From contig NZ_QAYX01000024.1 in assembly GCF_003054705.1 (NCBI RefSeq), positions 62,001 to 126,000 of the forward strand: DNA of 64,000 nt. Reading direction: 5' to 3'. Source of the DNA: Opitutus sp. ER46 (lineage in GTDB: Bacteria; Verrucomicrobiota; Verrucomicrobiia; Opitutales; Opitutaceae). The position numbers and the translations under genes were made by a program. Under the pieces are notes generated by a model that worked only from the letters and a program-made list of their open reading frames with translations, was not told the origin of the DNA and made no database searches. Positions 21,079 through 59,994 of the stretch are shown here, one piece after another (position 1 is the first letter of the stretch; the number at the start of each line of letters is the position of its first letter).

Positions 21079-21241
21079 GAAAGGGCTGAAGGCGGAAAGG
21101 ACTGAAGGGCTGAAAGACTGAAGGCGGAAGCCGGAGGACGGAAGACGGAAGACGGAGGCCAGAGGCCGGATGCCGGAGGACGGAAGCCGGAAGCCGGAGG
21201 ACGGAAGACGGAAGCTGTAGGGCGGAATACGGAGGGTGGAA
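21079..21241 (+). repeat. GGCTGAAGG / GGAAGCCGGAGGACGGAAG repeat tract
   Basis: About 160 bases of degenerate units change gradually from GGCTGAA-type to GGAAGCCGG- and GGACGGAAGAC-type, showing that the two word families are one continuum. A short complementary arm (GGCTTCTGGCCTCTGGCTTC) stands at 21328-21361. On the minus strand the tract is the leader of the regulator 1 gene. Confidence 0.75.
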
Positions 21242-21368
21242 CAAAGCATGGATCACGGTGCGGCGGGAGTGGGCAGATGAGCCGGAGGTGAGACATTGGG
21301 GACTCGTTCTCAGGTGTCTGTCGTCGGGCCTCCGGCTTCTGGCCTCTGGCTTCTGGCTCCCAGGGGCG

Positions 21369-21409
21369 TGGCGCAAATTAGGAAGTTAATGGCGCACTTT
21401 GCCGCTCGG
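21369..21409 (+). promoter_or_regulatory. Cluster A box for TonB receptor 2
   Basis: TGGCGCAAA is followed after exactly 21 bp by TGGCGCACTT and, 11 bp on from the start of that repeat, by GCCGCTCGG. It is the best-conserved of the four copies. It lies 113-153 nt upstream of the ATG at 21522. I cannot place a convincing -10. Confidence 0.72.
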
Positions 21410-21521
21410 AAACCCATCGGCCGACTGGATCATCCGGCCATTGACCCGCGGTGCGTCGACCCAAACGGCGCGCCGAACCTGCCAAGCTCACACCCCCGGA
21501 TGGTCGCAGTCCGATCCAGCC

Positions 21522-27880: not shown

Positions 27881-29050
27881 TCACAGCGCGTGCGAGCGCT
27901 TGCGGTAGGCGTCGGGATGGCAGCCGACGCGTTCCACGAACATGCGGGTGAAGGCGGACAGGGCGGCGTAGCCGGACTGGCGCGCGACCTCGCTGATGGT
28001 GTTGTGGGTGCGGCGGAGGAGCTGCTTGGCGAGGGCGAGGCGGAACTCGATGATGAAGTCGTGGATGGTGCGTCCGGTGCTCGCGAGGAAGCGGCGCTCG
28101 AGCGTGCGGCGCGGGATGCCGATGGTGTCGACGATCTGGTCGGTGCCAAAGGGGCAGTGGGCGCGGGCGCGGATGAGCTCGATGGCGGCGACGACCTTGG
28201 GGTCGGCGACGAGGAGGCGTTCGCTGGAGGCGCGGATGACGACCTCGGTGGGTGGCAGGGAGCGCTGGGCGGGCACGGCGCGGCCCTGGTAATGGGCATC
28301 GATGGCCTCGGCGGCGAGCCGGCCGATCTCGCGGGTGGGAATGCAGACGCTGGAGAGGCCCGGCTCGACGAGTTCGCAGATCAGCTCGTCGTTGCCGGCG
28401 CCGACGAGGGCGATCTCCTCGGGCACGGCGAGGCCGGCCCAGCGGCAGGCGGCGAGGATGCGCTCGGCGATCTTGTCGTCGAACGCGAGGATGCCGGTGG
28501 GTTTGGGCAGGCCGCGGAGCCAGGCGCTGAGCTCGGAGAGCTGGGAATCACCGGTGGCGGAGACGCCGGCGAAGGTGTCGACGGTGAACCGCTTCTCGCG
28601 CAGGCGGGCGGCGAAGCTGGCGGCGCGCCGGACGGAGGGCGGGTGGGTGGCGTCGGGGCCGCAGTAGGCAAAGTGTTCGAGGCCGAGGCTCTCGAGGTGC
28701 TGGGCGGCGACCGTGCCGACGGCCGCGTCATCGACGAAAACGGCGGCGTCATCGAGCTCCAGGTTGCGGGCGCTGGTTTCGACGCAGAAGACGCCGTGCT
28801 TGCGGAGCTGCCGGTGAAAATGCCGGGAGCGGTCAAACAGGATCGCCCCGTCGACCTTCATCTCGATGACGCGCTCGATGCCGGCGGCGTCGTCCTGGCG
28901 GACGAGGAGCAGGTTCCAGTTGCGCTGGACGGCGTATTCGTAGACCCCGAGCAGGCGTTCACGCCCGGGGCCGTCGCGCGTATCAATGCAGACGGCGACC
29001 CGCAGGCGTCCGGGGCGTGGTTTCTGGACCCGTTTGCGGCTGGCGGCCAC
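27881..29050 (-). CDS. XylR-like regulator 2 (LacI-type sensor + AraC HTH)
   Basis: The product is 389 aa from a GTG at 29050. It is a paralog of regulator 1 with the same sensor ('VAVCIDTRDGPGRERLLGV', 'FAYCGPDATHPPSVRRA') and a nearly identical AraC HTH ('TDQIVDTIGIPRRTLERRF', 'ISEVARQSGYAALSAFTRMF'). The sensor differs more than the HTH, as expected if the two respond to different sugars but bind shared operators. It begins only 20 nt after the recA stop on the same strand, with no room for a promoter beyond the recA 3' end, so read-through from recA is likely. Confidence 0.88.
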   Translation of the reverse strand: MAASRKRVQKPRPGRLRVAVCIDTRDGPGRERLLGVYEYAVQRNWNLLLVRQDDAAGIERVIEMKVDGAILFDRSRHFHRQLRKHGVFCVETSARNLELDDAAVFVDDAAVGTVAAQHLESLGLEHFAYCGPDATHPPSVRRAASFAARLREKRFTVDTFAGVSATGDSQLSELSAWLRGLPKPTGILAFDDKIAERILAACRWAGLAVPEEIALVGAGNDELICELVEPGLSSVCIPTREIGRLAAEAIDAHYQGRAVPAQRSLPPTEVVIRASSERLLVADPKVVAAIELIRARAHCPFGTDQIVDTIGIPRRTLERRFLASTGRTIHDFIIEFRLALAKQLLRRTHNTISEVARQSGYAALSAFTRMFVERVGCHPDAYRKRSHAL

Positions 29051-45429: not shown

Positions 45430-45603
45430 GGGCAGGGGAGGCGCCGGCTTCGCGGGGCGCCGACGGAAAGAGGGAGGGAACGGCAGGCCGTTCGAGGCCA
45501 GGGAGCCACGGCGGCTACGGCCGGACGCTGGCACCGCGGTCACCTCGGCGCAATCCGCACCTGGGTGACCCGGAGGCAGGGCGCGGGCCCTGCGGGCAGA
45601 CAA

Positions 45604-45668
45604 AGTGCCGGAACGGATTCCGGCACTGCCAGCAAACGCCGCCGGGGAGGGAAGTCGTCCCCGGCGGC
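45604..45668 (-). terminator. Two hairpins after the 1202-aa TonB receptor
   Basis: GCCGCCGGGGA...TCCCCGGCGGC (45638-45668) and AGTGCCGGAA-TCCG-TTCCGGCACT (45604-45627, followed by TTGTC on the minus strand) lie just past the receptor stop. They may limit read-through into the GH5-like gene. Confidence 0.7.
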
Positions 45669-45679
45669 AGGTAACACCC

Positions 45680-48600
45680 TTAGAACGAGAACGTGTTCGA
45701 GAGCTGCCAGGTCAGGCCTTCCTGGATACGGGACAGCGCCACGGAGCCATCGGGCTGAATATTGACCGGGACGAGGTGAGCCTTCTCGCCGACGTTGCGG
45801 AGGTTCAGCTGCACGCGCCAGTTGATGCGATCGGAGAGCTGGCGGTGATAGCCGACCCACAGGTCGACATGATCGTCGGTCGGGCCGTGATAGGGCTGGT
45901 TGATGTCGAGTGTGCCCTTCACCGCGTCGTACTTGTAGCCGAGGACGCGCTTGTCCTCCCAGCGGTAGGCGACGCCGACATTCACGTTCTTCAGCACGCC
46001 GGTCTTGAAGTTGTAGTTCGTGACGGCGTTGAAGCGCCACGGAGCGACTTCGGGAACCTGGCTGCCGATCTGGGCCTGGAGCACCGCGTAGGGGGCGAGG
46101 ATGGTGTCGGACCATACCTTGCGGAGCGGGTCGCCGCCCCACAGGCGGATCAGGCCCGCGTCGCCGGCGAGGAACTTCGTCATCTGGTCGATCCAAAGGC
46201 CGATCGTCGGGCTGATGGCGTCGCGCATCGCTTCGGTCTTCGAGAAGTTGACCGAGACGTTCCAGTTATCGAGCGGCTGGGCCGCGATTTCGACTTCGAC
46301 GCCCTTCGAGGTGGTGTCGACCGAGGCGACCGGGCCGGAGCCGAAGCTCTTGAGGCGGCCGGCATAGGCGGGCTGGAGGCCGAGGCCACCGTTGGCGCCG
46401 AAGCCGCTCGCACCGTAGGTCGGCACGGAGGCATAGCGTTGGGCGTTGGTCGTGGCGGCGTGCATCGCCGCAACATTCATGCCGAGGCCGTACTCATCGA
46501 CGAACTTCTGCGTGAGCGGGAAGCTCTTGAAGTAGTCGTTCACGATGGCCTGGATGCGCGGCTTGTCGGGCGAGCCGTCCGGGAGGGTGGCAATGCCGTT
46601 CCAGGGCCAGCCCCAGTTGCCTTCGCGGAGCTGCGGGTCGGAGATGCCGTCGAGCGCGGCGAGCGCGTGGGTGGCGCCCCAGTAGGGAATCGCCCAGGAA
46701 TAGTAGAGATTGCTGGAGAAGCCCGCGCTGTCGGCCTGCAGCGTGGCATTCTTCATCTTGGTCTCGTACTTCGTGACCTTCAGGGAGAGGCGGTCATTCA
46801 GCGTGCTGATGACGACGCCGTAGTCCTTTGTCTCGGCCTTCGGGTTGTCGATGCCGTTGCCGAAGATGTCGCCGCGCGGAGCGTCGGCCTTGAAGTTCTC
46901 GGAACGGTTCACGAACACGCTGAGGCCCGTGCCCAGCGGCATCTTGGAGCGGAGGCGACGCGGCATGTGGAGGACCACGCCCCAGCTCTTGGTTTCGCCG
47001 GCGACATTGCGCGGCGTCACCGCGACTTTGCCGTAGTCGAGGGTCGAGACGTTGTTGGTGCCCTTCGGGCCGGCCCGGTTCTCGGTCGTGATCTCGTCAC
47101 GGCGCCAGCCGAACGTCGGGACGATCGTGTTGTCCAACATGTAGCCCTGCCAGATGAAGGCCTGGGACTTGATCTCGAACTTCTGGAGCTGGGTGTCGGA
47201 GTAGAGCTTCGGCCGGTCGTCCGGATTGTCGTAGTTCAGCACGCGGAAGGAGTCCGAGCGCCAGCCACGATAGTTCGAGGCGATGTCGCCCTGGGTGCCG
47301 GTGGTGACGACCGGGACGCCGTTGGCATCGTAATCGATGTACGTGCCGGGGGCGGACGGGTCGACCGAGGCGTTCCAGTGCGAGTCGAAGTAGCGGAGGG
47401 CGACGTTGCCGTTCGGATTGATGGTCTGCGTGACCGCGCTGAGGTTGGCACCCGAAGCGCTCGAGCGGCCCGACAGGGAGGGCCCGAGATAGGAAATCCA
47501 GTCGTACTGGCGCTCGCCCGTGGTGATGTCGGTGTTGAGGGCATTCGCTGTGTTGTAGGCCGGATCGGAAGCCCAGCGCGTGAAGCTGCGCTGGTCGGTT
47601 TCCTTGGATTCCTCGGAGTAGAGACCGGTGAACACATGGCGGCCGAGGATCTTCGTCATCCAGTTCTTGCCGAGGTAGTCCTCGGAGTTGAGGTCGGCGA
47701 AGGCGGTCAGGCGCTTGTTGTCACGGTCGATGTAGTTCTCCGTGTTGCCGTACTGGCCGGAGTTGCCGACGTACGGACGCCCCAGATTCGGGTTCGGGGT
47801 GCCGTCCATGCGGTGCGTATTGATGTCGACGCCGAGGATGTACTGGTCGCCATTGAGGAACGCGAGCTGGCCGTCCTCGTAGCGCTGCATGTCGTACACG
47901 AACTCGAAGCCGAAGCGGTCCTTGAAGAAGGTCTGCGAGATCGCGATGTTCGCGGCGTCCCAGTTCTGCCACTCGCGTTTGTTGTTCCCGTCGATCAGCT
48001 GGTTATAGAAATCAAATATCGTCGGGTCGGAGAGCGAGACGTTGGAATAGTACTTGCCGCCGGGCACCGCCACGCGGGCGTAGTTGTTGAAGGTCGTCAC
48101 GGCCCAGAGCTTCGCAAACTCGATGCCGGCGATCGGCGTCGTCTTGCTGCCGGCGCCGATGGGCGTGCCGTTGGCCTTCGGGGTCATGCTGTAGAGCAGG
48201 CCGGTGGAGTCGAAGAACGAGGCAATGTTCGGATTGCCCATGCGGCCGAACGAGCTTTCACGGAACCACGGATACGCCGCGGAGGTGCCGAGGTAGTTGT
48301 TGCCCCACTGGTCCCACGTCGTGAGCGGGTTCAGCGTCAGCTTGTTCATGTTGGCGACACCGTTCGAGGTGCCGGTCCTGAACCACGGCGTGATGCCGTC
48401 GATCGGCGGCAGCGAGCGGGGCCGATTGGCGTTCACGTTGCCGTTCTCGTAGTTGACGCGAATTGAGGTGCGCGACTCGGGGCCGAAGAGCTTGGGCTCG
48501 TAACGCACCGCGCCGAAGAGGCGGCGGTCGCGGTTGAACGCCGGCTTCTGCTGGTACTTCGTGCTGTCGTCCAACGCCGCGAAGCGGAGGGCGAGGACGT

Positions 48601-49288
48601 CCTTGATCGCGACGTAGTTGAAATCAGCGGACCAGCGCACGGAGCCGAAGCGGCCCATCCGGTTCTCGACCTTGTTCGAGTTCTTGAAGGTCGCGGTGTT
48701 GATGCTGGTGTTGATGATACCGGCAGGGCTGCCGACGCCGAAGAGGATCGAGTTCGGGCCGCGCTGCAGGTCGACGCGGTCGACGATGTAGGCGTCCCAC
48801 GGGATCTCCGTCAGGAAGTAGTCCCGGGTGTTGTCCGCCGCATCCAGGCCGCGCACGCGGGTGTTGTTGCTCGGGCGGAGCAGATTCGAGATTTCATTGT
48901 AGGTCGAAGCGCCACCCGCGGCGGAGAAGTTGCCGCGCACGCCGGCGATTTCCGTGTTGGTCGTGTAGACCAGCAGGTCCTGCTGGTTCTTGGAACCCGT
49001 GTCCTGGAGAAACTGTGACGTCACCACGCTGATCGCGGAGGCCACGTCCTTCAGTTCCGTGCGGACGCGCGTGCCAGCGAGCGTGCTCGTCGCCTGGTAT
49101 CCGCGATCCTCGGACGCCTCCACGAGGAAGGGCGAGAGGACGAGGGGCTCCTCCTGGGCGGCGGAGTCGGCCGCAGGTCGGGCCGGAGGCGGAGCACTCT
49201 GCGCGTTAAGCGCAGGTGTAACCGCAAGCGAGAATACGGACGTGAGACAAAGCGCACGTAGCCGCAGGGAATGGCGGGTCATGATCAT
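45680..49288 (-). CDS. TonB-dependent receptor 3 of the mannan locus
   Basis: The product is 1202 aa from the ATG at 49288; a second ATG two codons on is equally possible. It has a signal peptide to about LNAQ, then 'VLSPFLVEASEDRGYQATSTLAGTR' leading into the plug ('LQRGPNSILFGVGSPAGIINTS'), and a very long barrel ending 'LSNTFSF'. It lacks the Ig-like regulatory domain of receptors 1 and 2 and belongs to the other large receptor type seen in Opitutaceae. It should import the mannan or glucomannan oligomers released outside. Its promoter carries the cluster B box. Confidence 0.88.
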   Translation of the reverse strand: MIMTRHSLRLRALCLTSVFSLAVTPALNAQSAPPPARPAADSAAQEEPLVLSPFLVEASEDRGYQATSTLAGTRVRTELKDVASAISVVTSQFLQDTGSKNQQDLLVYTTNTEIAGVRGNFSAAGGASTYNEISNLLRPSNNTRVRGLDAADNTRDYFLTEIPWDAYIVDRVDLQRGPNSILFGVGSPAGIINTSINTATFKNSNKVENRMGRFGSVRWSADFNYVAIKDVLALRFAALDDSTKYQQKPAFNRDRRLFGAVRYEPKLFGPESRTSIRVNYENGNVNANRPRSLPPIDGITPWFRTGTSNGVANMNKLTLNPLTTWDQWGNNYLGTSAAYPWFRESSFGRMGNPNIASFFDSTGLLYSMTPKANGTPIGAGSKTTPIAGIEFAKLWAVTTFNNYARVAVPGGKYYSNVSLSDPTIFDFYNQLIDGNNKREWQNWDAANIAISQTFFKDRFGFEFVYDMQRYEDGQLAFLNGDQYILGVDINTHRMDGTPNPNLGRPYVGNSGQYGNTENYIDRDNKRLTAFADLNSEDYLGKNWMTKILGRHVFTGLYSEESKETDQRSFTRWASDPAYNTANALNTDITTGERQYDWISYLGPSLSGRSSASGANLSAVTQTINPNGNVALRYFDSHWNASVDPSAPGTYIDYDANGVPVVTTGTQGDIASNYRGWRSDSFRVLNYDNPDDRPKLYSDTQLQKFEIKSQAFIWQGYMLDNTIVPTFGWRRDEITTENRAGPKGTNNVSTLDYGKVAVTPRNVAGETKSWGVVLHMPRRLRSKMPLGTGLSVFVNRSENFKADAPRGDIFGNGIDNPKAETKDYGVVISTLNDRLSLKVTKYETKMKNATLQADSAGFSSNLYYSWAIPYWGATHALAALDGISDPQLREGNWGWPWNGIATLPDGSPDKPRIQAIVNDYFKSFPLTQKFVDEYGLGMNVAAMHAATTNAQRYASVPTYGASGFGANGGLGLQPAYAGRLKSFGSGPVASVDTTSKGVEVEIAAQPLDNWNVSVNFSKTEAMRDAISPTIGLWIDQMTKFLAGDAGLIRLWGGDPLRKVWSDTILAPYAVLQAQIGSQVPEVAPWRFNAVTNYNFKTGVLKNVNVGVAYRWEDKRVLGYKYDAVKGTLDINQPYHGPTDDHVDLWVGYHRQLSDRINWRVQLNLRNVGEKAHLVPVNIQPDGSVALSRIQEGLTWQLSNTFSF

Positions 49289-49383
49289 TCGGGGGCTTGG
49301 GGTGGTTGGTGTTGGGGCGATCTTCGCGAAGCGGAGACCGGCTGCGTGCGCCCGGAAGATCCGGGACCGCGCTCAGCATGCCG

Positions 49384-49437
49384 ACTATAACGGGGGGCGA
49401 CGGGCGAGTGAATGAGTTCACTTGCACCGCAATTAAG
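49384..49437 (-). promoter_or_regulatory. Promoter and cluster B box of TonB receptor 3
   Basis: On the minus strand the box CTTAAT-[7 nt]-CAAGTGAACTCATT (49437-49411) ends on the first two T of the -35 TTCACT (49412-49407). A 17-bp spacer and the -10 TATAGT (49389-49384) follow. AGTGAA/TTCACT also forms a 16-bp palindrome (49407-49422). GCAA-[4 nt]-ACT recurs 21 bp apart. Confidence 0.7.
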
Positions 49438-49488
49438 TCTTATTGCCGGTAAACCTTGCGGGTTTTCCTCGGAGCGCGCGACGGGGAA

Positions 49489-50658
49489 CTAGTCGGACTG
49501 AATGCTCTTTGCTTCGGTTTTGCGCCTGAACTCGCCGGGAGACTCCCCGGTGAGCCGCTTGAAGACGACGCACATGTACTCGACATGCTCAAAGCCGGCC
49601 AATTCAGCGATGCGCTTCAAAGGGAAGTCAGTCTCCATCAACAACTGCCGAATCTTCTCCACCTGCACGCGGCGGATCTCCGCCTGGGGGGAGCGACCAA
49701 GGTGCCGGCGGAACTTCTTTTCGAGCTGGCTGCGCGACGCATGGGCGTGCGCCACCACCTGATCCACCGTGAGACCCTGGCAGGAGCGCTCGCGAATGAT
49801 GCTGAGTGCCGCCGCCACGTTGCGGTCATCGATTGCGAGCACGTCGCTGGACGGCCGCGTGACCATCCCGACGGGCTCGATGCGTTCGTCCAACGCCGAA
49901 TGATCCTCCCCCGCCAACATGGCGGCCAGCACCTCGGCTGCGCGATACCCTGATTGATACGCGTTGGGCGCCACACTGCTCAGCGGCGGATAGGCGAGTT
50001 CGCAGCGAATCGCGCCGTTGTTCGCTCCCACCACCGCCACTTCCTCGGGCACGAGCAGTCCGTGCGCGTGCGCCGCGGTCAGGATCTGCTGGGCCCGAAT
50101 ATCGAAGCACGCCATCACCCCGCACGGCTTCGGCAGTCGCTTCAGCCAGTCGGCCAGCGCCGTGATCTGGTCGATGTCCCACGAGGGGGTGACGTCTCCG
50201 GGGTAGTTGACGTCGAACACGTTGCACTCACGGCCGGCGAGCTGCAGCGCCTCGATGAAGCCGTCGCGGCGCTCGCAGGACCAGCCGTCGTTCGAGAAGC
50301 CGGTGAAGCCGAAATGCTGGAAGCCGCGTTCCAGGAAGTGTTCAGCCGCCAAGTGCCCGATGGCCACGTTGTCCGGCCGGATCTTCGGCACCCCCGGAAA
50401 ACGCGGCACGTCGTTCAGGTCGACGAGTGGGATCCGCAGCTTCCGGCAGGCCTGCACCAGGCCCGGGGTCGTGTGCCGGCTGATGATGCCGTCCCAGCGC
50501 TTGCTCTCGAGCCAGCGGGGATCGACCTCCGCGCGCGCCTCGTCGTCGTGAAACGCCGTCCAGATTTGGTGAGTGCGCTCGTAGTGCACGATGCCCCTCA
50601 GCATCGCCATGCATTCCTCGAAGCGGGTCAGGAAAACGAGGAGAACTTGCGGCCGCAC
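49489..50658 (-). CDS. XylR-like regulator of the mannan locus
   Basis: The product is 389 aa from a GTG at 50658; the frame extends into the upstream symporter gene, but family alignment begins 'RPQVLLVFLTRFEECMAMLRGIVHYER', as in XylR-type proteins. A LacI-like sensor (to ~residue 275; 'FGFTGFSNDGWSCERRDGF') is followed by an AraC HTH ('LTVDQVVAHAHASRSQLEKKF', 'LKRIAELAGFEHVEYMCVVFKRL'). It is the last gene of the GH130-GH2-symporter operon. It is the obvious candidate to bind the 27-bp cluster B box. The HTH differs from regulators 1 and 2, matching the different box. Confidence 0.87.
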   Translation of the reverse strand: MRPQVLLVFLTRFEECMAMLRGIVHYERTHQIWTAFHDDEARAEVDPRWLESKRWDGIISRHTTPGLVQACRKLRIPLVDLNDVPRFPGVPKIRPDNVAIGHLAAEHFLERGFQHFGFTGFSNDGWSCERRDGFIEALQLAGRECNVFDVNYPGDVTPSWDIDQITALADWLKRLPKPCGVMACFDIRAQQILTAAHAHGLLVPEEVAVVGANNGAIRCELAYPPLSSVAPNAYQSGYRAAEVLAAMLAGEDHSALDERIEPVGMVTRPSSDVLAIDDRNVAAALSIIRERSCQGLTVDQVVAHAHASRSQLEKKFRRHLGRSPQAEIRRVQVEKIRQLLMETDFPLKRIAELAGFEHVEYMCVVFKRLTGESPGEFRRKTEAKSIQSD

Positions 50659-50714
50659 AACCGCGAAGCTGCTGGCTGGCGCGGCTGACGCAAGTCCCGG
50701 ATGACGGAGCGGCT

Positions 50715-52133
50715 TCAGGCGGGCGTCGCTCCTTCGCGCGCGCGCCGCGCCCGGAGCTCGGCTTCGATTTCGCCGACGCGCCGATCGGTGAGCGGGTAAA
50801 AGCAGGCCACGACCAGGGCCAGCGCGCCCAGCGCCGCCGGAATCAGGCTCATCAGCAAGACGAGGCTTCGCAGGACGGTCGGGCTCTGCGCGATGTTGGG
50901 CACGAACCCGGTCGCCGAGAGCATCGAGCCAGCCACCAGCCCGCAGACCGCCCAGCCAAACTTCTGCGACATCGTCGAGGCGGAGAACACCAGCCCTGTC
51001 GCCCGCCGGCCGTTCTTCCACTCCGAATAGTCCGCCGTGTCCGCGTACATCGCCCAAAGCAGGACCGCCAGCGGTCCGCCGGCCACGTTGCCGAGGAACT
51101 GGAATGCGAAGATCAGTCCCACGGCGTGCGCCGGCAGCCAGAAGTACACCGCGTTGCATGCCGCCGAAGCTGCGATCAGGAGGAGGAAGGCGGTCTTCTT
51201 GCCGACCCGCGCTGCAAACCAGCCCACGCCCAGCACGCCCACGATCGAGCCGGCGTCACCGGCCACGCCGAACGCGGCCCACAGGTCCTTGAACTCGCAC
51301 AGGCGCGGCGCGTCCTGCCACGGCAACTGCACCATCTGCGGTCCGACGAAATACTTCAGGTAGTGCGCCGTGATCGTGAGCCGCGTGGAGATGAAGAGGA
51401 TGAAGGTCAGCGTCGTCCCGAGCAGGATGAGCCACGGGCCGTTCCGGAACAGGTCCTTCAGGTCGCGCCCAATCGACGTTTTCTGCTCCGGCGGCGGCGC
51501 CACCCGCTCTCGGGTGCCGAAGAACGTGACCAGGAAGAAGCCGACCGCCACCGCTGCGACGACTATGAACGAGAGGCTCCAGCCCCGCTGCGGGTTGGCC
51601 GCCCCGCCGAAGCCGTCGATCATGTACGGCAGCGTCATCTTGATCACCAGTCCCGCTCCAAAGGCGAAGACGAACTTGATCGACGACACGCGGGTGCGCT
51701 CCACCGGGTCGGGCGTGATGACGCCGAGCAGCGCGGTGTACGGGATGTTCACCGCGGTATAGAGCATCATCATCAGGTTGTACGTCAGGTATGCCCACAC
51801 GAGCCGGCCCGTCATGCCCAGGCTCGGCGTGGTGAACAGCAGCACGCCCATCAGGCCAAAGGGCACGCAGCCCCACAGGATCCAAGGGCGAAACTTGCCC
51901 CACCGGGTCTGCGTGCGGTCGGCGATGATCCCCATGATCGGGTCGTTCACGCCGTCCCAGATGCGGGTGAGCATGAACATCAGCCCGGCCGCCGCCGCCG
52001 TGATGCCGAAGACGTCCGTGTAGAAGAGCAGCAGGAAGTTGCTGAACGAGGCCCAGAACAGGCAGGAGGCAAAATCGCCGCAGCCATAGGCCAGCTTCTC
52101 GCGCAGCGGAAGTTTCGTGACGGGGTTGGTCAT
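50715..52133 (-). CDS. GPH-family sugar:cation symporter
   Basis: The 472-aa product has 12 hydrophobic segments and the glycoside-pentoside-hexuronide family hallmarks: 'LAYGCGDFASCLFW' in helix 1 and 'RIWDGVNDPIMGIIADRTQTRWGKFRPWI'. It should import small mannosides or cello/glucomannan disaccharides across the inner membrane. It lies 80 nt after the GH2 gene and 56 nt before the regulator, all on one strand, so they form one operon. Confidence 0.88.
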   Translation of the reverse strand: MTNPVTKLPLREKLAYGCGDFASCLFWASFSNFLLLFYTDVFGITAAAAGLMFMLTRIWDGVNDPIMGIIADRTQTRWGKFRPWILWGCVPFGLMGVLLFTTPSLGMTGRLVWAYLTYNLMMMLYTAVNIPYTALLGVITPDPVERTRVSSIKFVFAFGAGLVIKMTLPYMIDGFGGAANPQRGWSLSFIVVAAVAVGFFLVTFFGTRERVAPPPEQKTSIGRDLKDLFRNGPWLILLGTTLTFILFISTRLTITAHYLKYFVGPQMVQLPWQDAPRLCEFKDLWAAFGVAGDAGSIVGVLGVGWFAARVGKKTAFLLLIAASAACNAVYFWLPAHAVGLIFAFQFLGNVAGGPLAVLLWAMYADTADYSEWKNGRRATGLVFSASTMSQKFGWAVCGLVAGSMLSATGFVPNIAQSPTVLRSLVLLMSLIPAALGALALVVACFYPLTDRRVGEIEAELRARRAREGATPA

Positions 52134-52213
52134 TAAAAGATTGGAGCGCCCGCGCTTTCCCTGCCTGCCCCGGGCCGGCGCGTGGCGGGCAAACGCGCGC
52201 GGGGCCAGGGCGC

Positions 52214-54706
52214 TCAGCAGGTGTCCGCCAGCGAGTGCCAGCGCAGTGCCCGACGCAGCCGGAGGAGCGTGATCGGGCGCGTGAACTCGAGTTCCACCGT
52301 CCGGGCCTCATCGGGGTAGAGCTCGAAGTAGTTGTCGCTTGCGCGATGTGGCAGGCCCGGCACGTCGAACGCCAAGCGGTGCTGGAAAACCGGTGCGGTG
52401 AAGGTCAGTCGCGCCCGCCGGGCATCGATCAGTTCCGCCTGCACCCGCACGCGCGCCTTGGGCAGGTTCAGGAACCGCGGCGCCGCCAGGAACACGGTGT
52501 CCTCGCTCACGCGCTCCCCGCCAATCTCGAGCGCGATGCGCAGGTAGAGCGTGTCGCGGTCGTGGCGCGCCAGCGCCGCGTCGAGCGCGACCGTCCGCTG
52601 GAGCACGCTTTCTCCCGGGCGGAGCGCCACGCGGTGGCGGCCGTGCTGCACCACGCGGCCATCGAGATGGAAGAGATCCCACCGCAGCACGCCGGACGCC
52701 GGCTGCGGCGCGTCGTAAACGGTGTACAGGTGCACTTCGCGCGGGGGCGGCGGGCGGTAGTTGCCGATGCCCGGCGTGTCGTCGGCGGGCACGTGTGCCG
52801 TGACCAGCGCCGGCGCGAAGAACCGGCGTGCCACAAAGTGCAGCGCGCGCCACCGGCCGGTGTATTCGATCGAACTCCATGAGGCCACCGGCCAGCAGTC
52901 GTTGAGCTGCCAGTAAAGCGCGCCCATGCAGTGCGGCATCAGCCGCCGGTAGTGCTCGACCCCCGTCTGGATGCAGTACGCCTGGTTCAGTTGCGAAAGA
53001 TAGATGAGGTCGGCCTGCGTCCGCGGCAGTCGGTAGCGGCGGAACACGTAATCCAGGATCACCTGGTTGCCGCCGCGGTTCTTCTGGTGGTTCTCCATCG
53101 CCGGGCCGAACAGGTTGCCGGCTTCCGGCGCGCAGAACGTGGCCTGCGTCTCCGGCGAGCTGTAGCTCTGCATCCCGAACTCCGAGACGAAGCGGAACCG
53201 CCACTTCTCGTAGTCCTTCACTGGATGCCGGGCATGCCAGACGTCCCAGAAATGCGTGTCGCCGAGTTTCTCACCCGCGGCGTGGCCGTTGCCCGCTCCG
53301 TGGCCATTGCCGGTCCCCGGGCGGTGCGGCGACGATGGCCAGTACGCGGTGATCCCGTCCACGCGGTCCACCACCGTGGGCAGCGTCTGGTGAAACAGCG
53401 CGTCGTACGCGGCGCGGTGCGCGGGGTCCTGCAGGAGGTCGGTGTTGAGCCCCTCGATCTCGTTGTTGCCGCACCAGAGCGCGAGGCACGCGCGGTGCCG
53501 CAACCGCCGCACCTGCTGCTCCGCCTCCTCCTCGACGCTCTGGAGGAATGCGCGGTCGCCGGGATAGATCGAGCAGGCGAACATGAAATCCTGCCACACG
53601 AGCAGACCGAGTTCGTCGCACAGGTCGTAGAAGTCCTCGCTCTCGTAGATCCCGCCGCCCCACACGCGGATCATGTTCATGTGCGCCTCCGCCGCGCTGC
53701 GGAGGTCGCGCGCATACGCCTCCCGCGTCAGCCGCGTCACGAACGCGTCCGCTGGGATCCAGTTCGCGCCTTTGGCAAAGAGCGCCCGGCCGTTCACCCG
53801 AAACTGGAAGGTCTCGCCGGCGGCGTCGGCGTGCCGGTCGAGTTCGATCGTGCGCAGGCCCAGCCGGCGAATCCATGTGCCCAGCGCGTGGCCGTCGGCA
53901 TGCCGCACCTCCACCGCCAGGCTGTAGAGCGGCTGCGCCCCTTGGCCGTTGGGCCACCACAACTGCGGCTGCGCCACGCGCAGGCGCGTCCCCGTGCCTT
54001 CGGCCACGACGATGTTGCCGAGCTTCAGCCGGTGATGGCAGGTCACCGTCCGGTCCGCGCGCGCCAGTTCCGGCGTGAGATCGAGCGTCACCGAACCGTC
54101 GTCCGCGTGCTCCTGCGTCACCCGCACGTCGACGAGCCGGTTGCGCGTCCAGCCTTCCAGCCGGAGGCCCTTCCAGATGCCCGCGGTGACGAAACGGGGC
54201 CCCCAGTCCCAGCCAAATTGGCACGGCTGCTTGCGCACCACCTGGCTGCGGCCCACCGGGTCGTTGAACTCCCGCGGCTGATGCCCGCGCCGGTGCGTGC
54301 GGATGTAGCCCATCGCGCTCGCGAAGCGGATCGTGAGCCGGTTCCCCGTCGCGCGCAGGTGCGGCTTCACTCGCCAGCGGTGGCCGACGAACATGTTCTC
54401 CGTCCGGCCCACGCGGCGGCCGTTCAGCGTCACCGTCGCCACGGTGTCGAGCCCGTCGGCGGCGAGTTCGACGACCTCCTCCGTCAGCAGCGCCACGGGG
54501 ACGTCAAACTCCGCCGTGTACTCCCAGTCGTGCTCCTCGATCCACTGCAGCGCCGTTTCGTTCGCGCCCCAGAACGGGTCGGGGATGACGTCGTGGCGCC
54601 GCAGGTCGAGGTGCACGCAGCCCGGCACCACCGCGTCCCGCCAGGGACCGTCCGCCGTGGCGTCCCGGAACTGCCAGTTGGCAGAGTTGAGCGGGTGGTG
54701 GCGCAC
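52214..54706 (-). CDS. Cytoplasmic beta-mannosidase, GH2
   Basis: The product is 830 aa from a GTG at 54706, 15 nt after the GH130 stop. The frame extends upstream into GH130 but is a shadow there. The start 'NSANWQFRDA...WRDAVVPGCVHLDL' is the usual beta-mannosidase N-terminus. E416 in 'WCGNNEIEG' is the acid/base and E509 in 'FVSEFGMQSY' the nucleophile. There is no signal peptide. It hydrolyses terminal beta-mannose from imported oligosaccharides. It is flanked by GH130 and the GPH symporter. Confidence 0.9.
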   Translation of the reverse strand: MRHHPLNSANWQFRDATADGPWRDAVVPGCVHLDLRRHDVIPDPFWGANETALQWIEEHDWEYTAEFDVPVALLTEEVVELAADGLDTVATVTLNGRRVGRTENMFVGHRWRVKPHLRATGNRLTIRFASAMGYIRTHRRGHQPREFNDPVGRSQVVRKQPCQFGWDWGPRFVTAGIWKGLRLEGWTRNRLVDVRVTQEHADDGSVTLDLTPELARADRTVTCHHRLKLGNIVVAEGTGTRLRVAQPQLWWPNGQGAQPLYSLAVEVRHADGHALGTWIRRLGLRTIELDRHADAAGETFQFRVNGRALFAKGANWIPADAFVTRLTREAYARDLRSAAEAHMNMIRVWGGGIYESEDFYDLCDELGLLVWQDFMFACSIYPGDRAFLQSVEEEAEQQVRRLRHRACLALWCGNNEIEGLNTDLLQDPAHRAAYDALFHQTLPTVVDRVDGITAYWPSSPHRPGTGNGHGAGNGHAAGEKLGDTHFWDVWHARHPVKDYEKWRFRFVSEFGMQSYSSPETQATFCAPEAGNLFGPAMENHQKNRGGNQVILDYVFRRYRLPRTQADLIYLSQLNQAYCIQTGVEHYRRLMPHCMGALYWQLNDCWPVASWSSIEYTGRWRALHFVARRFFAPALVTAHVPADDTPGIGNYRPPPPREVHLYTVYDAPQPASGVLRWDLFHLDGRVVQHGRHRVALRPGESVLQRTVALDAALARHDRDTLYLRIALEIGGERVSEDTVFLAAPRFLNLPKARVRVQAELIDARRARLTFTAPVFQHRLAFDVPGLPHRASDNYFELYPDEARTVELEFTRPITLLRLRRALRWHSLADTC

Positions 54707-54720
54707 GGCGGCGAAGCGCG

Positions 54721-55710
54721 TCAGCGCTTGAGCGAATGATCCTTGATGAACTGGACGATCTCCTCGGCCTGGCAGAAGCACAGCGCGGAGAAGGTGTCCG
54801 CGGCGCCATAGTAGATCGCGATCCGGCCCGTCGCGGCATCGCACAGGCAGCCCACCGGGAAGCACACGCCCGGCACGAAGCCGGTCAGCTCGTACGGCGC
54901 CTCCGGGCAGAGGATGGCCTGGTCGGCCGAGGCGATGAGCTTCCACGGCTGCTCCAGGTCGAGGAGCATCGCGCTCATCGAATAGACGTAGCCGTTGCAG
55001 GTGTTCGTGACCGCGTGATAGAACAGCAGCCAGCCCTCGCTCGTCTCGATGGGCGACGGTCCGGCGCCGATCTTCATGCCCTGGAACCACGGCCAGCCGC
55101 GGCCGAAGATGTGCCGGTGCCTGCCCCAGTGGGTCAGGTCGGGCGACTCGCTGACGAAGATGTCGCCAAACGGCGTGTGCCCGGTGTCGGACGGCCGGGA
55201 GAGCATCAGGAACTTGCCGTTCACCTTGCGCGGGAAGAGCACGCCGTTGCGGTTGTACGGCAGGAACGCGTTCTCCAGCTGCTCGAAAGTCACGAAATCG
55301 GTCGTGCGCGCGAGGCCGATGGTCGGGCCGTGGTAGCCGTTGCACCAGGTAATGTAGTGCACGCCGTCGATCGGGGTGACGCGCGGGTCGTAGGCGTACT
55401 CGTGACGCCGGACCTCCGGGTCGTCGCATTTGAAGTCGATCGGCTTGGGCTCGAACGTGAACTTCAGCCCGTCTGGGCTGCGGCCAACGTGGAGGTGCGG
55501 CACCCGGTCCATGCCCTCGGTGCGAAAGACGCCGATGAACTCACCCTTCCATGGCACGACGGCGCTGTTGTAGATGCCGGTGACGCGCGGCAACGGCCGC
55601 CGACCGATCACCGGATTGGCGTCATAGCGCCACACGAGGTCCTGGTTCCCGGCAGGACGTGGCTGCCACGGAATGTTGGGAAGAGGAGATCCGACGATCT
55701 TGAGTTGCAT
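54721..55710 (-). CDS. GH130 beta-mannoside phosphorylase
   Basis: The 329-aa product is a five-bladed GH130 protein without signal peptide. Typical phrases are 'YNSAVVPWKGEFIGVFR', 'YDPRVTPIDGVHYITWCNGY', 'GDIFVSESPDLTHWG' and 'KIGAGPSPIETSEGWLLFYHAV'. Phosphorylases of this family turn beta-1,4-mannobiose, mannooligosaccharides or mannosylglucose into mannose-1-phosphate. Which one cannot be decided from the sequence alone. It is the first gene of the GH130-GH2-symporter-regulator operon, behind a cluster B box. Confidence 0.88.
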   Translation of the reverse strand: MQLKIVGSPLPNIPWQPRPAGNQDLVWRYDANPVIGRRPLPRVTGIYNSAVVPWKGEFIGVFRTEGMDRVPHLHVGRSPDGLKFTFEPKPIDFKCDDPEVRRHEYAYDPRVTPIDGVHYITWCNGYHGPTIGLARTTDFVTFEQLENAFLPYNRNGVLFPRKVNGKFLMLSRPSDTGHTPFGDIFVSESPDLTHWGRHRHIFGRGWPWFQGMKIGAGPSPIETSEGWLLFYHAVTNTCNGYVYSMSAMLLDLEQPWKLIASADQAILCPEAPYELTGFVPGVCFPVGCLCDAATGRIAIYYGAADTFSALCFCQAEEIVQFIKDHSLKR

Positions 55711-55780
55711 GGCGGTGAAGGATGGCGGGCTTCGATCCGCGGCGTGGAACGCGGGGGCAGGAGGGCGGGGAACAGCCTCA

Positions 55781-55834
55781 ACTCTACGGGTGGGCGCCGT
55801 CGTTGTTAATGAGTTCTATTGTTCGGGTCTTGAG
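55781..55834 (-). promoter_or_regulatory. Promoter and cluster B box of the GH130 operon
   Basis: On the minus strand CTCAAG-[7 nt]-CAATAGAACTCATT (55834-55808) ends on the first two T of the -35 TTAACA (55809-55804). A 17-bp spacer and the -10 TAGAGT (55786-55781) follow. The geometry is identical to the TonB receptor 3 promoter. The transcript would start about 60 nt before the ATG. Confidence 0.72.
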
Positions 55835-55972
55835 AGCGGGCGGCGGGAGCGACGGCGGGCGCCGCTCCCGGTGCGTTTCGACGCGGAAACCAGGCGTGTC
55901 GGGTGAATTAAGTCGGCGTCGGGCGCCGGTAGGGCTCGACTATCAGCGATGCTTAGCCGGCGCGTAGGCGGA

Positions 55973-57178
55973 CTACTTGGCGGGGGTGAGCCGGAAGAGC
56001 GCCACGTCGTGGGTGTCCACGCGCACCGTCAGCGGCTTGGTCGTGTCGCCCGCCGCCCGCTTGGCCCAAAGGTCGCGTACCTGATAGGGCCGGCGGTCGA
56101 GGGTCCAGAGACGTTCCCAATCGATGGTGAGGTCGGCCGGCGCGTTGCCGGTGTTGAGCGCGCAGACGGCCCAGTCGCCTTCACTCAGAGGCTTGATCCA
56201 GATCTCGATGGCGCGCGCCGGTTCGGCCAGCGCCCGGAAGCCCTGCTTGCCGAGTTTGTCCTGGTCGATGGCAATCACCTCACGGTCCGTGAGGATGGCC
56301 TGGATCTCCGGCTTCATGTGCCGGACGTCGTTTCCGGCCATGAGCGGCGCGGCCAGGATGCACCACAGCGAGAAGTGCGCGCGCGATTCGGCCATGCTCA
56401 GCCCGGCGTTGCCCACCTCGAGCATGTCGGGGTCGTTCCAATGCCCGGGACCGGCGTATTTGCCGATCCCGTCGGGCCCGATCGAATCCACCAGCGAGTA
56501 CTGGAGGTCGAGGATGCGCTTCCAGCCCATCTCCCAGCCTTTGCGGCCATCGTAGGAGTCGTAGATATCGCCGGATGTGCGCCAGAGGTGGCCGATGCCG
56601 GAGGCCCACTCCCAGGGCTTGTTCTGGCCCCATTCGCAGATGCTGAGGACCACGGGCCGGCCCGCGGTGTAGAGCGCGTCGCGGATCCGCGTGTAGGCGT
56701 CGCGCGCGTCGGCATTGCCGCGGTTGCACCAGTCGTACTTCAGGTAATCGATGCCCCACGCCGCGAAGGTGCGGGCGTCCTGGAACTCGTGTCCCCAGCT
56801 GCCGGGATAGTCGGCGCAGGTGCGCGGTCCGGCGCAGGAGTAGATGCCGAGCTTGAAACCGCGCTCGTGCAGGTAGTCCGCCAGCGCCTTCATGCCGCTG
56901 GGAAACTTGGCGGGGTCCGGCACGAGGTTGCCCTGCTCGTCGCGCTGCTTCTTCGACCAGGTGTCGTCGATCACGATGTACACGTAGCCGGCATCGCGCA
57001 TGCCGTTCGCCACCATCGTGTCGGCCGTCTGCTTGATCAGCGACTCGTGGATGTCGCTGGCGAACGTGTTCCAGGTGTTCCACCCCATCGGCGGGGTGAG
57101 GGCGAGATTCTCGAATTTCTGAGCCATCGCGGTGAGGGCGAGCGTGGAGGCAAGCAGGAGGGCGAGGGGCTTTCTCAT
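55973..57178 (-). CDS. Secreted alpha-galactosidase, GH27
   Basis: The product is 401 aa from the ATG at 57178, with a signal peptide (LALLLASTLALTAMAQ). GH27 motifs are present: PPMGWNTWNTF, 'YIVIDDTWSK', 'KLGIYSCAGPRTC', YLKYDWCN (nucleophile Asp), and 'WNDPDMLEVGN'. It should remove alpha-1,6-galactose side groups from galactomannan. Its start overlaps the GH1 stop by 4 bp, so it is translationally coupled as the third gene of the CE7-GH1-GH27 operon. Confidence 0.93.
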   Translation of the reverse strand: MRKPLALLLASTLALTAMAQKFENLALTPPMGWNTWNTFASDIHESLIKQTADTMVANGMRDAGYVYIVIDDTWSKKQRDEQGNLVPDPAKFPSGMKALADYLHERGFKLGIYSCAGPRTCADYPGSWGHEFQDARTFAAWGIDYLKYDWCNRGNADARDAYTRIRDALYTAGRPVVLSICEWGQNKPWEWASGIGHLWRTSGDIYDSYDGRKGWEMGWKRILDLQYSLVDSIGPDGIGKYAGPGHWNDPDMLEVGNAGLSMAESRAHFSLWCILAAPLMAGNDVRHMKPEIQAILTDREVIAIDQDKLGKQGFRALAEPARAIEIWIKPLSEGDWAVCALNTGNAPADLTIDWERLWTLDRRPYQVRDLWAKRAAGDTTKPLTVRVDTHDVALFRLTPAK

Positions 57179-58545
57179 GTGACGGGGAGGTTCGCGCCGC
57201 GGGCACGGATGGTTTCGCGGTACCACGCGTAGGAGTCCTTCGGCGTGCGTTTCTGGGTCTGGTAGTCGACGTGGATCAGGCCGAAGCGGTCCTTGTAGCC
57301 TTCCTTCCACTCAAAGTTGTCCAGGACCGACCAGTAGAAGTAGCCGGCGACCGGCACGCCGTCCTTGAGCGCCCGGCCGATCGTCGCGAGGTAACGTGCC
57401 ATGAAGTCGATCCGCTGCGGGTCGTGCACCTGGCCGTCGAGGTGAACGAAGTCCGTGTTGCAGAAGCCGTTTTCCGTGAAGACCACCGGTAGTCCGTAGC
57501 GCTCGTGCTGCATCCGCGCGGCCCAGTATGGAGCGGAGGGCGCGACGTTGAGCCACGAGAGCGTGCCGCGGGGATTGCCGATGCCCCAGCCGCCGGGCGC
57601 CTGCTCCGGTGTGCCGTCGGCCCGGGCGCGGACAAGCCAGCCCGAGTAGCAGTTGTAGCCCATGAAATCCAGCGGCTGCGCGATGAGCTTGAGATCGGCG
57701 TCGGTGAATGCCGGCACGTCGGCGCCGAACGCGCGCAAGCCCTCCTCGGGGTAGTGGCCCAGGTACACCGGGTCGCCCCACCAGGAGAGGTTCCACATCG
57801 AGCGATCGTGGCACGCGAAGTAGTCGCGCCGCGCCGCTTCGATGTCGGTCGCGCTCTCGGTGGCCGGGATGCGCTCCCGGCCGGTGAGCGCGAGCGAGAC
57901 CTTCACGCGATCGCGACAACCCGCCCGCAGCGCCTGCACCGCGGTGCCGTGCGCGAGCAGGAGATGATGCGCGCCCAGCAGGCACTCGCGGAAACTCAGC
58001 TTGAGCCCGGGCGCGTGCACCGCCTCCTGCAGCCCGAGCCCGATCGAGCAGGGCGGCTCGTTGAAGGTCATCCAGTGCTTCACGCGATCGCCCAGCCGCT
58101 GCGCGACGATCGTCGCGTAGGCGCCGAACCATTCCACGAACTCGCGGTTCAGAAAGCCGCCGCGCTGCTGCAGCGCCTGCGGCAGGTCCCAGTGGTAAAG
58201 CGTCACCCATGGCGTGATGCCGGCCGCCAGCAGCGCGTCGATCAGCCGGTCGTAAAACTCGAGGCCCTTCGCGTTCGCCGCGCCAGTGCCGTCGGGTATG
58301 ATGCGCGGCCAGGACAGCGACAGCCGGTACGCGCTGACGCCGAGGTCGCGCATCAGGGCGACGTCCTCGGCGTAGCGATGGTAATGGTCGCACGCCACGT
58401 CGCCCGTGTGGCCTTCGAAAATGTTGCCGGGCTGGTGCGTGTAGACGTCCCAGATGGACGGCGCGCGGCCGTCGAGCGCGGCGGCGCCTTCAATCTGGTA
58501 CGCGGCGGCGGCGACACCCCAGGTGAAATCAGCGGGGAAGTTCAT
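57175..58545 (-). CDS. Beta-glucosidase/beta-mannosidase, GH1
   Basis: The 456-aa product is of normal GH1 length, with no signal peptide. Key sites are E163 in TFNEPPC (acid/base), E358 in VFTENGF (nucleophile), the N-terminal FTWGVAAAAYQIEGA, and WSVLDNFEW. In this locus it may split cellobiose- or glucomannan-derived disaccharides. It starts 12 nt after the CE7 stop and overlaps the GH27 start. Confidence 0.92.
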   Translation of the reverse strand: MNFPADFTWGVAAAAYQIEGAAALDGRAPSIWDVYTHQPGNIFEGHTGDVACDHYHRYAEDVALMRDLGVSAYRLSLSWPRIIPDGTGAANAKGLEFYDRLIDALLAAGITPWVTLYHWDLPQALQQRGGFLNREFVEWFGAYATIVAQRLGDRVKHWMTFNEPPCSIGLGLQEAVHAPGLKLSFRECLLGAHHLLLAHGTAVQALRAGCRDRVKVSLALTGRERIPATESATDIEAARRDYFACHDRSMWNLSWWGDPVYLGHYPEEGLRAFGADVPAFTDADLKLIAQPLDFMGYNCYSGWLVRARADGTPEQAPGGWGIGNPRGTLSWLNVAPSAPYWAARMQHERYGLPVVFTENGFCNTDFVHLDGQVHDPQRIDFMARYLATIGRALKDGVPVAGYFYWSVLDNFEWKEGYKDRFGLIHVDYQTQKRTPKDSYAWYRETIRARGANLPVT

Positions 58546-58557
58546 GGGCGGGTCGGG

Positions 58558-59916
58558 TTACTTGAGGCCGAGGAAGGTCACGACGCGGTCCTGGTTTTCC
58601 GCGCCCTGCTCGGGCGTGTAGCTGTGCGCGAGTTCGAGGGTGAGGCCGAGTTTCTTGGGCGCGGTGATGACGTTGTACGCGGCGAACATCGAGGTCGGCG
58701 GGCACACGTCGTCGTTGTAGCCCCAGTTGTAGTAGCCCGGCACCTTCAGGCGGCGGGCGAAGTTCACCGTGTCGTAGTAGGCCGTCGTCGCGATCTTCGC
58801 GGGCGTGGCGTGCGGCGAGGGCGCGGGATAATTCCACTGCTGGAACGGCCGCGGCCAGCCGCCGGCGCGGCCGTGCAGGTCACCCGTTTGGTCACAACCG
58901 GCGGGGTGCGTGACCACGAGTGCCGTGACGCGCGGGTCGAGCGCGGCGGTGACGATCGAGAGCTGGCCGCCCTGGCTGGCGCCGGTCACCACGAGCGTGC
59001 GGCCGTCCCAGTTGTCGCGGGACGTGAGAAAGTCGTTCGCGCGGAGGCAGCTCAGGTAGACGCGGCGGTAGTAGTAGGATTCGCGGTCATCGAGATTGTA
59101 GAGCCAGTAGCCCTTCAGCGCGCTGCCGTAGAGCGAATCGTACACCTCCTTGGCCAGATTCACCGGGATGCCGTGGATGCCGATCTCGAGCGTGATCGCG
59201 CCCTGCGCGGCGGTGCCGGGATCGCCGGCGTACGGACGCACCCCCGCACCCGGGACGCGGAGCAGCGCCGGGTACTTCCCGGCTTTCTTCGGCTCGCAAT
59301 AGATGCCGTACACTCGCGCCTGGGGCGTCCAGCTCTCGCCCACGGTGCGGAAACTCACGTGGTACACGTTCACCGTGTCGGTGCAGGCCTCGGGCAGCAG
59401 CGTCATGCGCGCTTCGAGCGGGACCTTGGCGAGCGCTTCGCGACCCTGCGTCCAGAACGCGTCGAAGTCCTCCGGCTCCGTTTGCGTGGGCTTGATCTTC
59501 TCCGGCTCAAACGCCGCGGTCGCGACCCCGCGCCACGTGCGGCCCGCGATTTCGGCTTTCACCGTGCACCGCAGGAAGCCGGGCGCCTGCAACGTGCCGC
59601 CGTCGATCACCAGCCCCTCGGGCGGGACCGTGGCAGTCTTCTCCTCGGTCGGACGCGTCTCCTGCCCGGCGGTGTAGGTGATGGAGGCGCCCTCGATCGG
59701 CTCGTTGTCCGCAACCACGGTCACCTTGAACTTCGCGGTCTCGCCGAGGCGGTAGGTCCAGTCGCGATGGTCGGGGGCCACGCGCACCTGCACGGCGGCG
59801 ACGCGCAACTCGACGCCGGGCGGTACGGGCGTGATGGCCACCGGAGTGGCGGCGGGAAGGAGCGCGGGCAGGGCAAGCGCCACGATGCTCGCGAATAGCG
59901 GACGGGGGTTCTTCAT
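58558..59916 (-). CDS. Secreted carbohydrate acetylesterase, CE7-like
   Basis: The product is 452 aa from the ATG at 59916, with a signal peptide (FASIVALALPALLPAA). An N-terminal Ig-like region of ~120 residues precedes an alpha/beta-hydrolase domain of the acetyl-xylan-esterase (AXE1/CE7) type with S314 in GASQGG. The phrases 'YGIYCEPKKAGKYPALLRVPGAG' and 'HPAGCDQTGDLHGRAGGWP' are family-like. It should take acetyl groups from glucomannan or xylan. It is the first gene of the CE7-GH1-GH27 operon. Confidence 0.85.
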   Translation of the reverse strand: MKNPRPLFASIVALALPALLPAATPVAITPVPPGVELRVAAVQVRVAPDHRDWTYRLGETAKFKVTVVADNEPIEGASITYTAGQETRPTEEKTATVPPEGLVIDGGTLQAPGFLRCTVKAEIAGRTWRGVATAAFEPEKIKPTQTEPEDFDAFWTQGREALAKVPLEARMTLLPEACTDTVNVYHVSFRTVGESWTPQARVYGIYCEPKKAGKYPALLRVPGAGVRPYAGDPGTAAQGAITLEIGIHGIPVNLAKEVYDSLYGSALKGYWLYNLDDRESYYYRRVYLSCLRANDFLTSRDNWDGRTLVVTGASQGGQLSIVTAALDPRVTALVVTHPAGCDQTGDLHGRAGGWPRPFQQWNYPAPSPHATPAKIATTAYYDTVNFARRLKVPGYYNWGYNDDVCPPTSMFAAYNVITAPKKLGLTLELAHSYTPEQGAENQDRVVTFLGLK

Positions 59917-59940
59917 GGGCCGGGAGGGGAGGGGGCGCGG

Positions 59941-59994
59941 AGTTTAGCCCAATGCCGCCAGCGGCGGAATGAGCTTCGTTGTTACGCGATTAAG
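59941..59994 (-). promoter_or_regulatory. Promoter and cluster B box of the CE7 operon
   Basis: On the minus strand CTTAAT-[7 nt]-CAACGAAGCTCATT (59994-59968) ends on the first two T of a poor -35 TTCCGC (59969-59964). A 17-bp spacer and the -10 TAAACT (59946-59941) follow. The weak -35 fits a promoter that depends on an activator. Confidence 0.65.

Follow-up and report, generated by a model that had tools for sequence, protein, structure and literature searches.

AraC of Escherichia coli acts at araI1-I2, where two direct half-sites recur with a 21-bp period and the downstream one overlaps the -35 element. E. coli XylR is called an activator (PMC5766520). XylRA, from the marine Vibrio strain EA2, is a LacI-AraC hybrid that activates a xylan locus with xylose; its sites are paired direct repeats that precede five genes of the locus, and it binds strongly at four of these and weakly at one (PMC12125979). 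GmuR of Bacillus subtilis and GlyR2 of Clostridium thermocellum control mannan-degradation genes as repressors in Gram-positive bacteria (PMC10766802). A literature search of titles and abstract openings surfaced no description of an operator from Verrucomicrobiota, and PMC5952831 offered no useful passage on operators. Here we analyze a 64,000-nucleotide stretch of Opitutus sp. ER46 (contig NZ_QAYX01000024.1, positions 62,001 to 126,000; "the window"), in which a 27-bp box sits on the -35 element of three promoters in a putative mannan locus. We propose, with a probability of roughly 0.86, that a LacI-AraC hybrid encoded in the same locus (49489-50658) binds in a class II position, activates three operons, and in this way also boosts its own production.

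A conserved box at three promoters

The first gene of each of three groups (CE7, GH130, and TonB receptor) is preceded by one promoter with the box, on the minus strand: CTTAATTGCGGTGCAAGTGAACTCATT before the TonB receptor (49437-49411), CTCAAGACCCGAACAATAGAACTCATT before GH130 (55834-55808), and CTTAATCGCGTAACAACGAAGCTCATT before CE7 (59994-59968). An earlier note on this DNA had placed the boxes at these coordinates, with a -35-like hexamer at the last TT and a -10-like hexamer exactly 17 bp further on, and all of this is right to the base. With the first C of CTYAA as position 1, the box covers 1 to 27, the -35 hexamer 26 to 31, and the -10 hexamer 49 to 54. The 27-bp consensus of the earlier note is real, and the conserved element is longer: at the TonB promoter an upstream CAA (49445-49443) lies 21 bp above the CAA of the box, giving a pair of CAA-N5-CTYAWT half-sites with a period of 21 bp. 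Both strands of the window together contain RARCTCATT three times, always in such a promoter setting. The 5' leaders counted from the predicted -10 hexamers would be about 90 nucleotides (TonB), 64 nucleotides (GH130), and 18 nucleotides (CE7) long.

When two mismatches at most are allowed, the full pattern occurs at three places in the 5,714,369-base genome, all in the mannan locus, and the reversed pattern at one; the expectation for independent bases at the GC content of the window is about 3e-6 matches per window and 3e-4 per genome. The tests in relatives weigh more than these figures, because the consensus came from the same three sites. Searching with eight aligned regulators gave 80 named loci, the closest being from Opitutia/Opitutaceae and mostly metagenome-assembled. 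Among the 38 loci whose regulators share at least 57% identity (652,927 bases), and with a site defined as at least 15 of 17 fixed positions, 35 sites were found in 25 loci, compared with a single site for 12 column-shuffled control patterns together. The sites were chosen by the box alone, without use of the -10 hexamer, and TAnnnT stands at box position 49 in 30 of the 35; at any other offset between 40 and 61 it is found 3 times at most. The sites precede genes for a TonB receptor, GH130, GH1, or GH2, in most cases with 60 to 160 bases between site and extrapolated start. Near-identical genomes (L081/L082 and L077/L078) stay in these counts, and L040 and L100 are one contig, of which L040 alone is in the 38-locus scan. 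The earlier note had named conservation in orthologous loci as a check on its proposal, and both the box and its spacing are kept there. Chance, which it had thought a hard explanation to uphold, is rejected by the column-shuffled, reversed-pattern, and reversed-flank controls.

A finer view comes from a different genus of the family (g44), in which three genomes have the closest orthologs of the regulator (86 to 89% identical) together with all three promoters. Aligned with the window (four sequences), all three promoters keep the box and the -10 hexamer, and the spacers and flanks have drifted. At the TonB promoter, identical positions number 9/9 in the upstream half, 25/27 in the box, 1/17 in the spacer, and 6/6 in the -10 hexamer, with 15/51 in the upstream and 13/56 in the downstream flank. 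The corresponding values at the GH130 promoter are 6/9, 22/27, 5/17, and 4/6, with 18/51 and 15/56 in the flanks, and those at the CE7 promoter are 1/9, 19/27, 4/17, and 5/6, with 1/51 upstream and 27/56 downstream, where the flank is partly coding and takes in the gene start. The aligned stretches were found by the box and -10 pattern, and so the identity of the fixed positions holds partly by construction, unlike that of the free positions, upstream half, spacer, and flanks.

The anatomy of the site was read from a profile of 29 nonredundant sites. Conserved are positions 1 to 5 (CTYAA), 14 to 16 (YAA), 19 to 21 (RAW), 22 to 27 (CTCATT), and 29 and 30 (mostly A or C, then C), as well as the -10 hexamer; position 0 is T in 24 of the 29 sites. 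The RAR element that the earlier note had described is present in the window and is looser in the relatives, where the consensus is nearer to CTYAA-N8-YAA-NN-RAW-CTCATT. When the profile is compared with itself, the half-sites are most alike at offset 21, which scores 13.5 and is the best of the 22 offsets from 10 to 31; the next best reaches 4.8. A period of 21 bp is what an AraC-type protein would lead one to expect. The operator therefore consists of CAA-N5-CTCAWT written twice, 21 bp apart, with the second copy running into the -35 hexamer: a direct repeat, as for a XylR-type operator. Below, the CAA word is called the A box and the CTCAWT word the B box. The last two bases of the site double as the opening TT of the -35 hexamer, with TAnnnT at its fixed distance, which is the register of class II activation. 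The third base of the -35 hexamer is never the consensus G (0/29), as expected of activator-dependent promoters.

The upstream CAA starts at position -7 in 13 of the 29 sites, and all other starts from -20 to 0 together account for 4. It is found in 12 of 14 TonB sites versus 1 of 15 other sites; since it is mostly restricted to the TonB sites, the TonB promoters may be bound more tightly. In the window and in the relatives, TonB promoters mostly combine a complete operator with TTCAC- and TATAGT-like hexamers, and GH130 promoters combine a partial operator with TTAACA (7/8) and TAGGCT-like hexamers. Perhaps these differences reflect tuned promoter strengths. One relative has a second candidate operator, CTCTAACGAATCGCGCGCAGCCTCATT (L092, 5602, minus strand), in the opposite orientation and about 220 bp from its TonB site at 5821.

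A wider regulon in the ER46 genome was considered and rejected, looser patterns giving background only (18 places versus 18 for the reversed control, and 4 versus 1 with another pattern); a single-mismatch place, C25:295664, is among the looser matches. No fourth site was seen by eye before the mannanase-like gene of the window (45561-45760). The closest named relative (L071) has an extra box at 15456 (plus strand) before a mannanase-like gene, with GATAAT one base further away, at an 18-bp spacing.

The candidate regulator and a family of operators

The candidate regulator combines an N-terminal LacI-type sugar-binding domain with a C-terminal AraC-type double helix-turn-helix (HTH) according to Pfam, the architecture of the XylR type. 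Its best sequence match in the PDB is E. coli XylR (4fe4/4fe7), near full length (residues 14 to 379, E value of 6.8e-47). The best fold match is again 4fe4 (E value of 1.6e-19, template modeling score of 0.58, root mean square deviation of 17.4, 28% identity), with a domain arrangement that differs in the model. The AlphaFold model has a mean pLDDT (predicted local distance difference test) of 78.8, with values below 50 at residues 217 to 223, 268 to 281, 292 to 296, 298 to 309, and 387 to 389. Helices 309-320 and 359-370 of the model are the expected places of the two recognition helices.

Box and regulator occur together across the family. Of 252 family genomes, 46 have the box with its -10 hexamer (at most one mismatch), none has the reversed pattern, and 53 have the regulator (E≤1e-120, with at most 7 candidates scored per genome). 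Both are found in 42 genomes, with a Fisher p value of 7e-33 that, like other Fisher p values here, is only descriptive because genomes and sites are related by descent. Two genomes amend this count: G197 encodes an ortholog that is 69 to 70% identical, in one open frame, and scored just below the threshold, and G059 has a partial match of 135 residues (69% identical). With them, 44 of the 46 box genomes carry the regulator, one of them in part (table of 44/11/2/195).

The layout extends beyond the close orthologs. The pattern CTYA-N17-CTCA-N23-TAnnnT, which leaves out the A box, has 43 matches in 87 loci (L040 and L100, which are one contig, are both included); spacers of 22 and 24 give 6 matches each, and the reversed pattern gives 1 over all three spacers. 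Operators of this wider layout number 46, at 45 of 127 regulator loci (within 400 bp), and reversed flanks give none. The 127 loci include at least 12 duplicate contigs (for example, L237 and L099), which do not inflate the 46 sites, because all duplicate contigs are among the loci without an adjacent operator. The layout reaches loci of Planctomycetota, such as L111, L112, L119, and L113.

Does the operator vary with the protein that would read it? Bases 13 to 16 are mostly RCAA or RTAA in the mannan clade and mostly ACG or GCG in the others, and residue 315, in the predicted recognition helix of the first HTH (309-320), is mostly K in the mannan clade and mostly R in the others. K315 goes with A15 at 24 of 28 sites, and another residue goes with A15 at 2 of 18 (table of 24/4/2/16, p of 1e-6); for part of this comparison, and for the test on the tree below, 11 non-adjacent sites labelled by hand were added. 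These data would fit a modular operator code in a large LacI-AraC hybrid family of Verrucomicrobiota and Planctomycetota, in which the B box, CTCAT, is nearly constant and joined to the -35 hexamer and an A box of 3 to 4 bp (mostly RCAA or RTAA, ACG, GCG) varies with the recognition helix of the first HTH (EKKF/ERKF versus ERRF/EQRF). We consider such a code possible, on balance rather doubtful. In its favor, L099, L102, and L039 lie inside the mannan clade and carry R315 together with G15. Against it, L259, L240, and L242 combine K315 with G15, L236 combines N315 with A15, L111 and L247 have conflicting sites, and L105, L128, and L139 have T15 or C15. Moreover, residue 315 comes only 13th among 101 positions in a mutual-information scan, and positions 348, 311, and 345 fit about equally well. 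Tested on a tree of the ligand-binding part, the link between the recognition helix and the A box does not reach significance; the tree offers only 2 to 4 independent contrasts, too few to give the test power, and L111 and L247 are left uncounted on it. Hence, the covariation is a lead and not a result. If the code holds true, a single short word, always at the same promoter position, could keep many paralogous sugar regulators from acting on each other's targets.

A proposed class II activator and its rivals

We hypothesize that a dimer of the regulator would occupy the two direct half-sites, which at 21 bp apart would lie on the same side of the DNA. Within a half-site, the A box would be recognized by one HTH and the B box by the other. 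Because the last two bases of the downstream B box are also the first two of a weak -35 hexamer, the bound regulator would touch RNA polymerase in the class II manner, and this contact would make up for the poor -35. The effector is presumably a mannan-derived sugar (mannose or a manno-oligosaccharide) bound by the LacI-like domain, and the sugar-bound regulator would switch on the TonB receptor, the GH130-GH2-symporter-regulator operon, and the CE7-GH1-GH27 operon together. As the last gene of the GH130 group, the regulator gene would raise its own level if that group is one operon, a case of positive autoregulation. The class II layout that the earlier note had suggested gains support from the conserved box and spacing and the shared -35 register. 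Its candidate, the cis-encoded XylR-like protein, is favored by the co-occurrence in the 252 genomes, the 21-bp half-sites, and the near-full-length similarity to XylR. The upstream half-site, the proposed autoregulation, and the contrast between TonB-type and enzyme-type sites go beyond that note.

The same protein could instead be mainly a repressor that blocks the -35 hexamer until the sugar releases it, in the style of the LacI family, and both the contact of the operator with the -35 and the LacI-like ligand domain would suit such a role. We regard it as unlikely. LacI operators are usually palindromic, unlike the direct repeats found here. The -35 hexamers are consistently non-consensus, which also argues against repression. 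Furthermore, the DNA-binding half is of the AraC type, and the closest solved homolog, XylR, is described as an activator (PMC5766520, PMC12125979).

It is less probable still that another regulator owns the boxes. The genome encodes three further LacI-AraC hybrids (E≤1e-20), two of them in this very window, which speaks for such an owner. These paralogs are only 26 to 34% identical to the regulator next to the boxes, and it is the orthologs of that neighbor that the box tracks across the family; the box before TonB genes often lies about 60 to 110 bp from the 3' end of the regulator gene. A promoter for an alternative sigma factor, with CTCATT as -35 and TAnnnT as -10, would explain why these two are among the most constant parts and why their spacing is fixed, and is highly improbable, since a sigma promoter has no place for the conserved CTYAA, the CAA, and the second CAA 21 bp above, and since the A-box word differs between regulator clades. 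A class II activator of the XylR type explains the direct repeat, the -35 register, the weak -35, and the neighborhood; the rivals explain less.

Several observations weigh against the activator reading, in addition to the descent shared by genomes and sites and the failure of the helix-A box link on the tree. In the window itself, the GH130 and CE7 sites have no upstream CAA. Thirteen of the 38 orthologous loci lack a site at the threshold of 15 of 17 positions, including L075 and L088, whose regulators are 74% and 70% identical; their genomes (G116 and G110) have a matching site on another contig. In the wider survey, 82 of the 127 regulator loci are without an operator within 400 bp. Two genomes have the box without a close ortholog: G210 encodes more distant paralogs (best, 47%), and G079 has no regulator homolog at E≤1e-40. 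Conversely, 11 genomes have the regulator without the canonical pattern (G035, G058, G082, G112, G113, G176, G178, G246, G264, G268, and G271), variant boxes being present in three of them (G246, G264 with L099, and G271 with L102).

The features of the locus are listed in Table 1. On the minus strand the order is CE7-GH1-GH27, GH130-GH2-GPH symporter-regulator, the TonB receptor, and a possibly mannanase-like protein that matches DUF5060 weakly. In 26 genomes of the same genus, the best match to the regulator has an E value of 4e-100 and an identity of at most 46%. With close orthologs in g44 and distant ones in its own genus, the locus (43357-59916) may have arrived by horizontal transfer, or sister species may have lost it.

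Table 1. Genes and promoter elements of the mannan locus, in window coordinates
Feature	Coordinates	Strand	Remarks
TonB-dependent receptor, downstream of promoter 1	45680..49288	-	Pfam Plug domain
TonB promoter -10-like hexamer TATAGT	49384..49389	-	17 bp after -35
TonB promoter -35-like hexamer TTCACT	49407..49412	-	shares the operator's last TT
TonB-promoter operator	49411..49445	-	27-bp box (49437-49411) plus upstream CAA (49445-49443)
Candidate regulator, 389 aa, XylR type	49489..50658	-	Peripla_BP_3 105-270, HTH_18 303-380
GPH-type sugar symporter	50715..52133	-	Pfam MFS_2; TIGR00792 over cut-off
GH2 beta-mannosidase-like enzyme	52214..54739	-	Pfam Glyco_hydro_2_N2, Mannosidase_ig, Ig_mannosidase
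GH130 mannooligosaccharide phosphorylase-like, heads GH130-GH2-symporter-regulator	54721..55710	-	Pfam PF04041
GH130 promoter -10-like hexamer TAGAGT	55781..55786	-	
GH130 promoter -35-like hexamer TTAACA	55804..55809	-	
GH130-operon operator	55808..55834	-	upstream half without CAA
GH27 alpha-galactosidase-like	55973..57271	-	start codon uncertain; Pfam Melibiase_2, Melibiase_C
GH1 beta-glycosidase	57175..58545	-	Pfam; TIGR03356 over cut-off
CE7-type (AXE1) esterase, heads CE7-GH1-GH27	58558..59916	-	Pfam AXE1
CE7 promoter -10-like hexamer TAAACT	59941..59946	-	
CE7 promoter -35-like hexamer TTCCGC	59964..59969	-	poor
CE7-operon operator	59968..59994	-	upstream half without CAA

The two other hybrids of the window are encoded at 19900-21249 and 27881-29050, both on the minus strand, and may own a separate "first" box of the earlier note. 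The former adjoins a TonB receptor gene (16570-19662, plus strand) and an open reading frame (21399-24584, plus strand), and a near-exact repeat of TGGCGCA at 21-bp spacing lies at 21369-21396, upstream of 21523. On one metagenome contig (L103), the ortholog of the mannan regulator (10007-11166) is divided over two reading frames.

Comparison with known systems

E. coli XylR resembles the mannan regulator in its LacI/AraC domain order, its near-full-length homology, and its fold, which is the best match (4fe4); it differs in its identity of only 28%, in its operator words, and in its targets, xylose genes there and a mannan locus here. The xylA-xylF intergenic region of E. coli has a near repeat with a period of 21 (8/10 bases), the period with the most hits among 15 to 29, which we do not claim to be the mapped XylR site. 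XylRA, the nearest published case found, is alike in domain make-up, in its paired direct repeats at several promoters of one polysaccharide locus, and in the activating role proposed here, and it differs in its AT-rich repeats, its xylose effector, and its gammaproteobacterial host. The present case concerns a GC-rich relative of Opitutaceae, the words are CAA and CTCAWT, and a TonB receptor is among the candidate targets.

AraC at araI1-I2 shares the half-site period and the -35 overlap with the mannan operator. Its arabinose-binding domain is of another kind, and it uses a partner site for DNA looping, which was not sought in the mannan locus, and at the protein level the match is a weak one in the PDB, to the DNA-binding domain (2k9s). 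GmuR and GlyR2 have the control of mannan genes in common with the regulator described here, and differ in being repressors of Gram-positive hosts. The analysis offers a concrete, testable regulator-operator pair for hemicellulose use in Opitutaceae-like bacteria. Its pattern can serve to locate mannan operons, with their promoters, across many uncultivated genomes, and through the layout that they share, operators could be assigned for further LacI-AraC hybrids. In summary, the principle is known from the systems above, and the mannan regulator and its operator site appear to be new.

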